A DNA stretch of 64,000 nucleotides from Paenibacillus sp. JNUCC32 (GTDB lineage: Bacteria; Bacillota; Bacilli; Paenibacillales; Paenibacillaceae): the NCBI RefSeq assembly GCF_014863545.1, contig NZ_CP062260.1, forward strand, positions 4,287,001 through 4,351,000, written 5' to 3'. The notes beneath the pieces were generated by a model. It was given only the letters and a program-made list of their open reading frames with translations. It did no database searches and had not been told where the DNA came from. The translations under genes were made by a program, and so were the position numbers. Below are positions 14,186 through 19,681 of this stretch, in pieces. Positions within the stretch are counted from its first letter, which is position 1. The number at the start of each line of letters is the position of its first letter.

Positions 14186-15637
14186 ATGCCATTACATAAA
14201 GCTAGAAAAGCATTCACCGTGTTTTTGCTCACCGCTTCCCTATTGGGAACCACCTTCATCCCTGAAGGAAAAACATATGCTTCTGCCGCCGATCCCATCC
14301 AAGGGCAGGTTACCGAGGTTACGACTGCACGAACGTCGGATGAAAAAATTGCCGAGTGGGAGAATTGGGCCAAAGACCATGTATATCGACTGGATACGAT
14401 TCACCCGGCCAACACAGCCAACGGCACTAACCAGTATAGGGATCTGGCTATGCTGAAGCCCTTGCTGCATGACAAACGTTTCGTGTTTCTAGGGGAGAGC
14501 TCCCACGGGGTTGGCGAGTTCAATCTGGCGAAGACCCGCTTGATCCAGTTCCTGCATCAGGAGATGGGGTACAACGTTCTGGCCTTTGAGAGCGGTCTTG
14601 GCAACAGCTCCTTGGCTTACGGCAGGGCCGGGCAGCGGAGCGCGGAACAAACGATGAAGGATTCCATCTTCGGCGTCTGGTGGTCCAAGGAGATTTTGCC
14701 GTTGTTCGACTACATTAAAACAGCACAACAGAGCAAGCAGCCGCTCGTGCTGACCGGTTTTGACATGCAGCTGCAGCATCCGCTGTTGGACGGACAATGG
14801 CTGCAGGATCAGGCCATGGCTAAGCGTCTATCGGAAGCTGAGAAGAAACTGTCCGACTACTCTCTTGGTACGGATCTAGACGCTTACCGCAAAGAGAAAC
14901 ATCAGCTGATTCAAGTGTACAAGGATGCTCTGGAATCATTAAAGACGGAGGCAAACGAAGCTCATCTGAAACGGCTGTACCCGGATAACCCCAAACTGTC
15001 CATGCTGCTCGAGCGGACCCTGAACGACCGGATTCGGGTAGCCCGGGAATATGTGGAGCTCTCCATTCAATCAACGCTTGGTATGGAAAGCGGGGATTAT
15101 GTCCCGTTCCTGGAATCGATGGAATGGCGGGACCAGGCGATGCATGACAATCTCATGTGGCTGGCAACCGAAGTATACCCGATGGAAAAATTCATCGTGT
15201 GGGGACATAACGACCACATCCGCAAAGCTCAAACCGAGGTGATGGGTACGCCATATCCGGTGACTTTAATGGGAGAGAAACTCTCGGATGAAATGAAGAA
15301 ATACAGTTACGTGCTTGGCCTGTATCCGGCCAGCGGCCAAACCGCGGATAATATGGGGAATGTGCATGACGTCCTGCCGGCAGAGCCGGGCTCCATTGAA
15401 TCGATCCTCTCGGCCGCAGGCTCGCCGTATACCTTCGTTGATCTGCGTTACCAAAAACGCGAGGCAGGCAACTCGTGGATGTTTGAGCCGCGTTTTGCCT
15501 ATAGCTGGGGGATGATTCCGGAAAGCTTAATCGCCCGCGACCAGTACGACGGTATTCTGCTGATCGATGACGTAAACCCGCCCCAATATATGAGATCCTC
15601 CGCTTCATCCAAGGCTTCTGTGCCTGCTGAAGAATAA
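14186..15637 (+). CDS. Secreted erythromycin-esterase family protein
   Basis: 483 residues. The N-terminus is a Sec signal peptide (K-A-R-K, hydrophobic core, T-Y-A-S-A near residue 33), unlike cytoplasmic EreA and EreB. The family signature F-L-G-E-S-S-H-G-V-G-E-F (Glu104, His107) is present, as are the later F-E-S-G and V-W-G-H-N-D-H-I-R-K motifs, so the catalytic set looks complete. Ere enzymes hydrolyse the lactone of 14-membered macrolides, but many chromosomal homologues have other or unknown substrates. Ribosome binding is through AAGGAG at a rather long 14 bases. A perfect orphan Shine-Dalgarno (AAGGAGGTGA) lies at 14114-14123. It is monocistronic with a strong terminator. Confidence 0.85.
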   Translation: MPLHKARKAFTVFLLTASLLGTTFIPEGKTYASAADPIQGQVTEVTTARTSDEKIAEWENWAKDHVYRLDTIHPANTANGTNQYRDLAMLKPLLHDKRFVFLGESSHGVGEFNLAKTRLIQFLHQEMGYNVLAFESGLGNSSLAYGRAGQRSAEQTMKDSIFGVWWSKEILPLFDYIKTAQQSKQPLVLTGFDMQLQHPLLDGQWLQDQAMAKRLSEAEKKLSDYSLGTDLDAYRKEKHQLIQVYKDALESLKTEANEAHLKRLYPDNPKLSMLLERTLNDRIRVAREYVELSIQSTLGMESGDYVPFLESMEWRDQAMHDNLMWLATEVYPMEKFIVWGHNDHIRKAQTEVMGTPYPVTLMGEKLSDEMKKYSYVLGLYPASGQTADNMGNVHDVLPAEPGSIESILSAAGSPYTFVDLRYQKREAGNSWMFEPRFAYSWGMIPESLIARDQYDGILLIDDVNPPQYMRSSASSKASVPAEE

Positions 15638-17681: not shown

Positions 17682-17704
17682 TATAATAGTGACAACTATT
17701 GTCA
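17682..17704 (+). promoter_or_regulatory. -10 box and inverted-repeat operator between dinB-like and WYL genes
   Basis: TATAAT at 17682-17687 is followed immediately by the perfect inverted repeat TGACAA-CTA-TTGTCA (17690-17704). The operator would cover the transcription start of the WYL gene, giving autorepression, and lies about 70 bp upstream of the divergent DinB gene. Confidence 0.6.
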
Positions 17705-17733
17705 TAGTCATCCAACGATTCGGAGCTGATCCT

Positions 17734-18681
17734 ATGTCCAAATCCAAACGTCTCATCGAGCTGATGATGACCGTTAACCGAATGCGAAAATTCACGGTAC
17801 GAGAACTGGCCGATCAATTCGGCGTGTCGTCCCGCACGATTTTGCGGGACCTGCAGGAGCTCAGCGAACTGGGAGTCCCCCTCTATTCCGAGGTAGGACC
17901 GCACGGCGGCTACCAGGTGCTGAAGGAACGGGTTCTCCCGCCGATCGCCTTCAGCGAGGAAGAAGCCGTCGCGATGTTTTTTGCCAGCCACGCCCTGCGT
18001 CACTATCTATTTCTTCCCTTTGAAGCCGAGTCCTCTACCGCACTTCAGAAATTTTATTATTACATGCCCGGGGATGTGCGCGACCGGATTGACCAGATGA
18101 AGAACCGGGTGGATTTTCTGACGCATACCAGACAGCAGAAGGCTGAATCTCTCGGGGCTCTGCTGGATGCCGCCGTCGACCAGCGGGTCGTTACGGTGTT
18201 ATACGAGAGCAGGGACGGCTATCCCGCGCGAAGCATCCAGCCCGTGGGCATCTATGCAAGCAACGGCTTCTGGTATTGTCCCGCATATTGTTTTCTGCGC
18301 GATGATTTCCGTCTGTTCCGCTGCGACCGCATGCAGTCCGTGGCTGAGGATGCAACCGGCATCGAGCCGCGGGATCACCGGCACATCCATCTGGGGAACT
18401 GGAGGGAATACGGGACGGAGAAATCGGTCTATGTCCGGATGGTCGTGGATTTGAGCCGGGAAGGCGTTCAGCGCTGCGAATCTGAGTTATGTCCTGTCCC
18501 CCATATCGCTATGCGGCCGGATGGAAGCGGACGGCTTGATCAGAACGTCCCTGCCAGCGAACTTTTGTATTTTGCTAAATTTTTTATCGGATTAGGGAAT
18601 GAAGCCACCGTGAAGGCGCCGCAGGAGCTGGTGGTTCGCATCAAGGGGATGCTCGCGGAGATGATGGCGAAGTATGGTTAG
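17734..18681 (+). CDS. HTH/WYL-domain transcriptional regulator (YafY type)
   Basis: 315 residues from the ATG at 17734, with GGAG eight bases upstream. An N-terminal winged helix (F-T-V-R-E-L-A-D-Q-F-G-V-S-S-R-T-I-L-R-D-L, residues about 20-40) is followed by a WYL domain around residues 140-240 and a WCX-type C-terminal extension. The WYL motif itself appears as W-Y-C at the expected position. WYL proteins respond to small ligands or nucleic acids and are linked to stress and defence regulation. The DinB gene on the other side of the shared operator is the likely target. Confidence 0.88.
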   Translation: MSKSKRLIELMMTVNRMRKFTVRELADQFGVSSRTILRDLQELSELGVPLYSEVGPHGGYQVLKERVLPPIAFSEEEAVAMFFASHALRHYLFLPFEAESSTALQKFYYYMPGDVRDRIDQMKNRVDFLTHTRQQKAESLGALLDAAVDQRVVTVLYESRDGYPARSIQPVGIYASNGFWYCPAYCFLRDDFRLFRCDRMQSVAEDATGIEPRDHRHIHLGNWREYGTEKSVYVRMVVDLSREGVQRCESELCPVPHIAMRPDGSGRLDQNVPASELLYFAKFFIGLGNEATVKAPQELVVRIKGMLAEMMAKYG

Positions 18682-18747: not shown

Positions 18748-18776
18748 TTGACGAAAAGAACACGCCTTGCTACAAT
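18748..18776 (+). promoter_or_regulatory. Strong promoter of the acetyltransferase attenuator
   Basis: -35 TTGACG (18748-18753), 17-bp spacer, -10 TACAAT (18771-18776). The predicted start near 18783 leaves about 118 nt of leader RNA before the acetyltransferase, enough for the leader ORF and hairpin. Confidence 0.75.
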
Positions 18777-18807
18777 TTCATCAACAATTAGGAAAAGGAT
18801 GAGGACG

Positions 18808-18861
18808 ATGGTTCGTCGTTTGATCAGGTTTAAGAATGTAGCTACTGTATTCAGCTTCTAA
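18808..18861 (+). CDS. 17-residue leader peptide of putative attenuator
   Basis: The ORF encodes MVRRLIRFKNVATVFSF and has a Shine-Dalgarno AAAAGGATGAGG ending four bases before the ATG. Its stop codon (18859-18861) lies inside the 5' arm of a perfect 11-bp hairpin. This is the arrangement of erm and cat leader peptides, where a drug-stalled ribosome melts the hairpin and frees translation of the resistance gene. The peptide contains R-F-K, which fits the +x+ motif known to arrest macrolide-bound ribosomes, although a stall there may be too far upstream to open the stem. The role is inferred from layout; no homologous leader is recognised. Confidence 0.6.
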   Translation: MVRRLIRFKNVATVFSF

Positions 18862-18889
18862 GTAAAAATGATCTATTCTACTTAGAAGC
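18854..18889 (+). promoter_or_regulatory. Attenuator hairpin before the xenobiotic acetyltransferase
   Basis: GCTTCTAAGTA (18854-18864) pairs perfectly with TACTTAGAAGC (18879-18889) around a 14-base loop. The acetyltransferase Shine-Dalgarno GAGGAAA begins at the next base (18890), so the folded stem would obstruct ribosome access. There is no T-run, which favours translational over transcriptional attenuation. Confidence 0.65.
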
Positions 18890-18900
18890 GAGGAAATAGA

Positions 18901-19563
18901 ATGAAACAACATCGATTTGAACACTGGTCCGAGATTAAGTATCTGAAGGATATCGTCACAAACCCGATGATAAGCGTAGGAGAATACTCATACTATTCCG
19001 GTTATTACGATCATCATGATTTTGAAGATGGCTGCGTTAGGTATCTATGGGGGGATGCAAAATCCAGAAGGTTGTTTAATCCCATTGAAGACTATGGTTG
19101 GCATATCGATAAATTGATTATCGGAAATTACGTATGCATCGCAAGCGGCGTCATTATTTTAATGGGTGGAAATCACAACCATCATCCTGAATGGGTAACC
19201 GTGTACCCGTTTGTCGATCAGATTGAGGCTTCTTTCGCGCCAAAAGGCGATACCGTCATCGAAAGCGATGCTTGGATTGGAATGAATGCCATGATTATGC
19301 CAGGTGTGACCATTGGCGAAGGCGCCATTGTTGCGGCTGGTTCGGTTGTTACTAGAGATGTCCCGCCCTACAGCATCGTAGGCGGTAACCCTGCCAAAGA
19401 GATAAAGAAACGCTTTGCGGACGAAGACATCGAAAAGTTAATGGAAATGCGATGGTACGATTGGGAACGCGAGCAAATTGAACGAGCCGCACATATCTTG
19501 TCCAGTTCTTCCGTCCATCGATTATATGACTATTATCAAAAAGAAATAAAACCCTGCGTTTAA
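18901..19563 (+). CDS. Xenobiotic O-acetyltransferase, Vat/CatB family
   Basis: 220 residues of left-handed beta-helix with hexapeptide repeats ([37 protein letters not shown]). The Vat/CatB active-site region is present as [10 protein letters not shown] with His92 in the catalytic position, and the end has the [13 protein letters not shown] signature. Vat enzymes acetylate streptogramin A and CatB enzymes acetylate chloramphenicol, both in the cytoplasm with acetyl-CoA; which drug is used cannot be decided. The inducible-looking leader upstream supports an antibiotic role. Confidence 0.88.
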
Positions 19564-19594
19564 ATTTCTGATGCCTCCCTATAAATAGGAATGC

Positions 19595-19628
19595 AAATAT
19601 CCCTTCTTGAATTCAAGAAGGGATATTT
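19595..19628 (+). terminator. Perfect 34-bp palindrome, probable terminator
   Basis: AAATATCCCTTCTTGAA and its exact complement form a 17-bp stem ending in TTT, followed by GTTGTCTTGG. It lies between the acetyltransferase and the opposing nagA, and could stop transcription from either side. Confidence 0.7.
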
Positions 19629-19681
19629 GTTGTCTTGGCCTCAAGCTTGTCGTTCATCGTTCAAAACTCATAACATCCTGT

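Follow-up and report, generated by a model that had tools for sequence, protein, structure and literature searches.

The window, a 64,000-nucleotide stretch of the Paenibacillus sp. JNUCC32 genome, carries on its forward strand a gene for a 220-amino-acid CatB/Vat-like hexapeptide acetyltransferase (18901..19563). Upstream of it, the promoter scan called a sigma-70 type promoter (TTGACG-17-TACAAT with an extended -10 TG; 18748..18776, + strand), followed by a leader ribosome binding site, AGGAAAAGGATGAG (18790..18803, +), and a 17-codon leader ORF, MVRRLIRFKNVATVFSF (18808..18861, +), recognised from the sequence and from homologous leaders, which opens with ATG at 18808 and closes with TAA at 18859-18861. 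An extra in-frame ATG lies three codons upstream at 18799; the conserved start is 18808. The leader stop falls within the 5' arm of a hairpin, GCTTCTAAGTA (18854..18864, +), whose 3' arm, TACTTAGAAGC (18879..18889, +), matches it in 11 of 11 pairs across a 14-nt loop. The core of the acetyltransferase Shine-Dalgarno (SD) sequence, GAGG (18890..18893, +), is flush with this hairpin, and the gene start at 18901 is 39 nt from the leader stop. The promoter, the 17-codon leader with its own ribosome binding site, the stop-containing 11-bp hairpin and the SD abutting it all lie where the initial annotation of this DNA had placed them. Beyond the gene, a palindromic 16-pair inverted repeat (19594..19629), called on the - strand by the terminator scan, is a probable terminator.

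The promoter scan returned four promoter-like sites in 3 kb against 3.1 expected, which is not significant alone, and a scan of the window against Rfam 15 gave no match at gathering score. Folding of 18783-18920, a check proposed in the initial annotation, bore out the hairpin as moderately better than shuffles (7 of 200 as good), with a z of only -1.95. The promoter scan is at background and the fold only moderately unusual; it is conservation that carries the significance. One motif, CUUAGAAGC, which we take to resemble a sequence of the 23S GTPase centre, was set aside as probably a chance likeness.

The acetyltransferase matches Pfam PF00132 at 51 bits (cut-off 27). It scores 213.7 bits against the NCBIfam CatB model NF000490 (cut-off 350) and 157.1 bits against the Vat model NF000311 (cut-off 300). 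The earlier label of a Vat/CatB-like acetyltransferase is right, but the protein falls under both family cut-offs; by score, it is nearer to CatB than to Vat. Among solved structures, the best matches in sequence are CatB8 (8j40; E 8.3e-54) and 5ux9, whose chain is named chloramphenicol acetyltransferase. The closest protein in the database, at 97% identity, carries the name CatB-related O-acetyltransferase [Paenibacillus lautus]. We know of no activity for this clade. The same genome holds a second CatB/Vat-like acetyltransferase (L002; G000:C1:1855166-1855717), which shares 48% identity and lacks this leader. A second possible drug-modifying gene in the window lies some 3 kb upstream of the acetyltransferase and encodes a 483-amino-acid protein of the erythromycin-esterase family (14186-15637, +; PF05139, 130.7 bits). 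The gene for a WYL/HTH_11 transcriptional regulator (17689-18681, +) stops 66 nt short of the promoter; only 3 of 59 loci have a relative of it within 3 kb of the acetyltransferase, so it is probably not the regulator of that gene.

Relatives of the acetyltransferase were collected in two scans. The genus scan (E<=1e-40) hit 26 of 100 genomes, where 17 places, including two partial ones, reach at least 81% identity and nine lie at 46-51%; the genome-contig scan gave 78 loci, 60 of which (L032-L091) had 65-92% identity. Defining close relatives by at least 65% protein identity yielded 77 loci (17 and 60, respectively), or 71 distinct loci after removal of six duplicates. The leader is present in 70 of these 71 protein-found relatives (69 located by script, plus L021) and is absent only in L087, and a hairpin with nearly the same letters is present in 69. 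Conservation upstream of homologous acetyltransferases, which the initial annotation had named as a check, is thus borne out. The promoter is represented as well: 61 of 71 relatives have a best site that scores 10/12 or higher, a count without shuffle control, and in 57 of the 64 with a score of at least 9/12, 30-32 nt lie between the end of the -10 element and the leader start. GG[AG]TGA or a near form stands at the leader ribosome binding site in most aligned relatives.

Records of close relatives are named Paenibacillus, Cohnella, Brevibacillus, Bacillus, Peribacillus, Sporosarcina, Oceanobacillus, Lysinibacillus, Metabacillus, Enterococcus, Vagococcus, and Erysipelothrix. A strict hairpin pattern searched in 398 genomes of the class was found in six, always before the acetyltransferase, and its reversed control in one. 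Neither leader nor hairpin accompanies the nine more distant acetyltransferases from the genus scan (L023-L031; 46-51% identity), and the control loci (the relatives L002-L006 from the same genome, L023-L031, L087, the distant L092-L109, and L164-L168) gave no covariance-model match. Within 3-kb flanks, the genes that neighbour the acetyltransferase in the window recur at only 2-3 of 59 loci, so promoter, leader, hairpin, and gene move as one unit.

Several acetyltransferase copies have interrupted or gapped frames (L021, L022/L090, L087, L091), which may reflect either real decay or sequencing error. The leader is retained in L021, where the gene is frame-shifted, in L022/L090 and in L091; L087 has lost the leader and the 5' arm and has kept the 3' arm and SD before a gene with an internal gap. 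Across the phylum (E<=1e-45), the acetyltransferase was found in 2 of 398 genomes, namely its own and one of the same genus; database relatives named Clostridium or Peptostreptococcus lie outside the reach of that scan. The leader DNA had no match among plasmids. The acetyltransferase matched 2985 plasmid records, with 45-50% identity among the 20 matches listed; a further 20 records fall in the 60-80% identity band. In viral contigs, the strict hairpin pattern matched once, at an acetyltransferase locus (L153), and a looser pattern matched six times, at L153 and at five places without such a leader, which gauges the rate of chance matches.

A covariance model (R1) was built from 60 loci out of the 71 that make up the leader sample below. 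In the family, it matched 33 of 295 genomes at 35 places, and in the class 9 of 398 genomes, in scans that overlap each other and the earlier loci. Among the family places examined, all but G650:C18, 30 loci carry the acetyltransferase (28 by script; L139 and L140 by their N-terminus), as does G690. At one locus (L148, genome G612) the leader-hairpin module stands before a 388-amino-acid MFS transporter (PF07690), and the class scan placed it twice (L151 and L152, in G283 and G310) before a 386-amino-acid homologue of that transporter. In the second family, to which these two genomes belong, a protein search found the transporter in 10 of 151 genomes, G283 and G310 included, and leader and hairpin precede it in all ten (7 of 10 leaders fit a strict pattern, 10 of 10 a looser one). 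The module therefore accompanies 11 of 11 MFS loci (L148 and the ten; L148, L154-L163), where the leaders start with TTG. Standing in many Bacilli and before two unrelated genes, it is likely a switch that can be transplanted.

Among the 120 of 268 MFS protein relatives listed, names include MFS transporter, antibiotic resistance protein, arabinose efflux permease, and MdtG; some of the matches listed are named in Peribacillus, Viridibacillus, Bacillus atrophaeus, and Paenibacillus larvae. Plasmids (five records) and phages (two records) hold only relatives of 32-35% identity. A combined model (R2) matched 9 of 250 genomes of the class; its sole new place was spurious, and no third class of downstream gene was seen there. 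Two weak R1 matches (G681:C57 and G650:C43; 30-33 bits) were likewise spurious, preceding a 460-amino-acid protein and showing no such hairpin, and L177 (28 bits) was rejected because it lies within a gene with a LysR-like start.

Conservation of the leader was tabulated over 71 acetyltransferase loci that have it by selection (the 69 found by script, plus L111 and L112 found by the hairpin pattern) and over the 11 MFS loci. Residue 3 is R in 71 of the 82 leaders and K in 11; residue 5 is L in 81 and I in one; residue 9 is K or R in all 82; residue 10 is N in 79, D in two, and Q in one; and residue 11 is V in all 82. Residue 12 is A in 67 and S in 15 overall, divided as 65 A and 6 S among the acetyltransferase leaders and 2 A and 9 S among the MFS leaders; among the former, one switch on the tree accounts for the alternation (69 of 71 rows), a point against the mechanism proposed below. 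Val11, Leu5, and Arg3 each use four codons and are unchanged as residues across the 71 acetyltransferase leaders. Synonymous codons are free while residues are fixed, which argues for protein-level selection on the leader. The C-termini vary: they read ..VFSF; ..ATA in L046 and L067, which stop before the hairpin; ..TASK in L079; and ..QALLI in the MFS leaders.

The hairpin is conserved on other terms. GCTTCT of the 5' arm is present in 70 of 71 acetyltransferase loci and 11 of 11 MFS loci, and the downstream string AGAAGCGAGG in 66 of 70 acetyltransferase loci (variants of one to three letters in the rest) and again in 11 of 11 MFS loci. The leader is read through the hairpin in frame +1 in 69 loci, 0 in L079, and +2 in the 11 MFS loci. 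Conservation as a by-product of a peptide ending S-F-stop was rejected, since the hairpin letters persist in other reading frames. Over 60 loci, 97.7% of cells are paired, with a covariation of 0.084 against 0.046 in shuffles (0 of 500 as high); in a set of 27 loci including the MFS loci, the values are 96.3% and 0.135 against 0.064 (0 of 500). In that set of 27, the number of double-changed pairs was not above shuffles (320 of 500). Pairing, covariation, and frame-independent letters together point to RNA-level selection on the hairpin.

Codon 12 lies 13 nt from the hairpin in 69 loci, 12 nt in one, and 14 nt in 11, and the offset of the leader stop relative to the 5' arm is +5 in 67 loci, -4 in two, +9 in one, and +10 in 11 (L085 left out of both counts). 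With the codon-12 spacing near-fixed while the stop offset varies, a stall rather than termination looks to be the positioned event. The Erysipelothrix locus L085 keeps the leader peptide (MVRRLKQMRNVAT..) and has an AT-rich hairpin of other letters by the SD, which could be chance.

We propose that, without drug, the hairpin would lock AGAAGC of its 3' arm, which we read as the upstream half of an extended SD, AGAAGCGAGG. When bound by the drug, a ribosome translating the leader would stall once Ala or Ser12 is the penultimate residue; at the window locus, the predicted stall site covers the Ala12 codon (E site, residue -1) and the Thr13 codon (P site) at 18841..18846 (+), a placement suggested by the conservation of residue 12. 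The stalled ribosome would cover about half of the hairpin 5' arm, and the gene would be freed for translation. Translational attenuation by a stall at codons 12-13 is, in our judgement, the probable mechanism; we infer the stall, its codon, the drug class, and the induction itself. A leader-peptide attenuator before the acetyltransferase, as the initial annotation had suggested, draws support from conservation, covariation, spacing, and folding.

Folding calculations on 81 loci (L085 left out) bear on where a ribosome would have to stop. We assumed that the ribosome covers the RNA as far as +16, counted from the first P-site nucleotide, presumably the usual toeprint offset. The mean cost of freeing AGAAGCGAGG is 11.6 kcal/mol in free RNA, and 12.8, 12.9, 6.8, and 2.7 kcal/mol with codon 8, 11, 12, or 13 in the P site; at codon 13, it is lower by more than 2 kcal/mol in 81 of 81 loci. 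The cost drops at P-site codons 12-13 only, which suggests that codon 8 is too far upstream and that a ribosome with Ala/Ser12 at -1 just reaches the hairpin. Because the leaders of L046 and L067 stop after residue 14, a stall shared by all loci would have to lie at or before P-site codon 14. One point against the mechanism is that the 3' arm at codon 13 has a mean unpairedness of 0.56, with some loci near 0 (0.92 in the window, 0.0 in the worst locus). Paired with what we take to be the Bacillus 16S tail, AGAAGCGAGG gives -9.3 kcal/mol and the core alone -5.9 kcal/mol; such extended pairing would explain the frozen letters of the 3' arm and hence those of the 5' arm. Also counting against the mechanism, the GAGG core is unpaired in the hairpin, and its mean unpairedness falls from 0.63 in free RNA to 0.40 at codon 13 in a longer fold.

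The identity of the inducer is approached through residue 12. Ala, then Ser or Thr, at -1 is reported to favour arrest by chloramphenicol and linezolid (PMC11832420; PMC13410324), a penultimate rule also reported in Bacillus and Lactobacillus for chloramphenicol and in Enterococcus for linezolid (PMC8987054). A penultimate preference of Ala over Ser follows this phenicol/oxazolidinone rule and points to a phenicol-like inducer. Chloramphenicol is also reported hardly to inhibit with Gly at +1 (PMC11832420). Gly is absent from codon 13 in every leader, and Gly14 occurs in 3 of 71 acetyltransferase leaders and 0 of 11 MFS leaders, so a phenicol rule of no Gly at 0 or +1 fails in three of the 71. 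Residue 13 is T, V, I, S, or Q, not Asp, and Lys stands at -4, not -3. The proposed inducer binds the peptidyl-transferase centre and obeys the Ala/Ser penultimate rule; with Gly14 in three leaders and the reported helpers Lys-3 and Asp0 missing, the chances that it is of the phenicol type look about evenly balanced. The high conservation of residues 3-5 and 9-11 suggests arrest by a specific peptide sequence rather than the bare phenicol rule.

The alternative that survives best keeps the stall at codons 12-13 and changes the drug, with arrest specific to the peptide. Streptogramin A, a lincosamide, a pleuromutilin, a hygromycin-like compound, or a macrolide acting on N-V-[AS] are candidates; to our knowledge, the sequence preferences of several such drugs are unmapped. 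Another drug would be suited by a conservation of residues 3-5 and 9-11 that roughly equals that of residue 12, by Gly14 in the three leaders mentioned, and by the score of the enzyme against the Vat streptogramin A acetyltransferases (157 bits). Against it, residue 12 is confined to two of the three residues that favour phenicol/oxazolidinone arrest and CatB is the better-scoring family (213.7 bits). We regard this alternative as possible and somewhat doubtful, with a probability that overlaps that of the preferred explanation.

A macrolide or ketolide sensor of the erm/msr type, in which arrest at R-F-K would open the hairpin, is very unlikely. The initial annotation had read R-F-K as a +x+ arrest motif, +x+ is a known macrolide arrest motif (PMC12121999), and every one of the 71 acetyltransferase leaders has at least one, starting at residue 4 (65 of 71) or 7 (63 of 71). 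However, no +x+ position is constant: residue 7 is R or K in 63 of 71 leaders and Q, M, or L in eight, and 3 of 11 MFS leaders have no +x+ anywhere. Furthermore, a P site at codon 5 or 8 leaves the 3' arm paired (mean unpairedness 0.00), and at codon 8 the opening cost is not lowered; a ribosome stopped at R-F-K would thus tend to leave the gene silent. Since a ribosome there falls short of the hairpin and three MFS leaders have no such motif, R-F-K is probably not the stall site. A macrolide could conceivably cause arrest elsewhere.

Two further explanations are very improbable, each a little more so than the macrolide sensor. A leader-controlled transcription terminator or antiterminator has precedent in the Gram-positive resistance genes bmrCD, lmo0919, and mef/mel (PMC5418344), but no T run follows the hairpin (GAGGAAATAG stands there), the terminator scan made no call there, and the 3' arm runs directly into GAGG in 80 of 81 loci and into GAAT in L084. 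Action through termination, by stop-codon arrest or re-initiation of the msrD type, would suit the stop lying inside the 5' arm in the window and in 67 of 71 loci and has a known counterpart in the stop-codon arrest of MsrDL (PMC12121999), but stop offset and C-terminal residues vary while codon-12 spacing hardly does, and the gene starts as far as 39 nt beyond the leader stop.

Attenuation by a stall at codons 12-13 thus remains our preferred reading. No description of this leader or hairpin was found in the open literature, among the matches listed and at the level of titles and the beginnings of abstracts, a collection that holds few subscription papers. The element itself is real and conserved widely, and it probably works in the manner of the cat and cmlA attenuators; its leader family is new to the literature searched, its hairpin does not depend on the reading frame, and it stands before two unrelated genes. 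We give about an even chance to a broader hypothesis: that it is an undescribed, portable RNA cassette of Bacilli, in which a leader [KR]x[LI]xxx[KR][NDQ]V[AS] and a near-invariant hairpin stand before at least two unrelated detoxification genes and move with the gene, sensing a drug of the peptidyl-transferase centre through the small residue 12 and gating the extended SD; a soil antibiotic as yet unknown could be its natural inducer.

Two poorly characterised families, the acetyltransferase related to CatB in Bacilli and the MFS transporter, share a putative regulator that can be tested. The drug that stalls the leader is probably what the acetyltransferase and transporter remove, which offers a route to their substrates. 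The 82 natural leaders, with their Ala/Ser alternation and change of frame through the hairpin, should be useful for work on context-dependent antibiotics, and the covariance model can help annotate hidden inducible resistance.

Among known systems, VatI and CatU of Paenibacillus sp. LC231 are likewise Paenibacillus drug acetyltransferases (PMC5155152); the main text of that paper contains neither "leader" nor "inducib". The window enzyme scores 137 bits against the VatI model (cut-off 415). Erm leaders and MsrDL also control a resistance gene by drug-dependent arrest on a leader (PMC12121999), whereas here there is a single hairpin and neither a conserved +x+ position nor a conserved C-terminus. 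By description, fexA of staphylococci is similar, an attenuator acting on translation of a phenicol exporter (PMC5418344). The CmlA leader stands upstream of a chloramphenicol exporter, and the MFS gene described here may likewise encode an exporter; it has a chloramphenicol-dependent arrest motif, K-N-A-D, with Ala next to last (PMC10192921). Compared by motif only, the present leaders read K-N-V-[AS]-x, with Lys at -4 rather than -3 and a residue 0 other than Asp. Cat attenuators of Gram-positives are exemplified by cat-86 and the plasmid cat genes, and the cat-86 enzyme is not known to belong to the CatB/Vat hexapeptide family. These attenuators likewise combine a short leader, a structure at the ribosome binding site of the gene, and a drug acetyltransferase (PMC12190993, PMC5418344), with a leader of 9 codons (PMC12190993) against 17 here. 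The present element differs in its CatB/Vat hexapeptide enzyme, in hairpin letters kept in three reading frames, and in an SD core that lies outside the stem.
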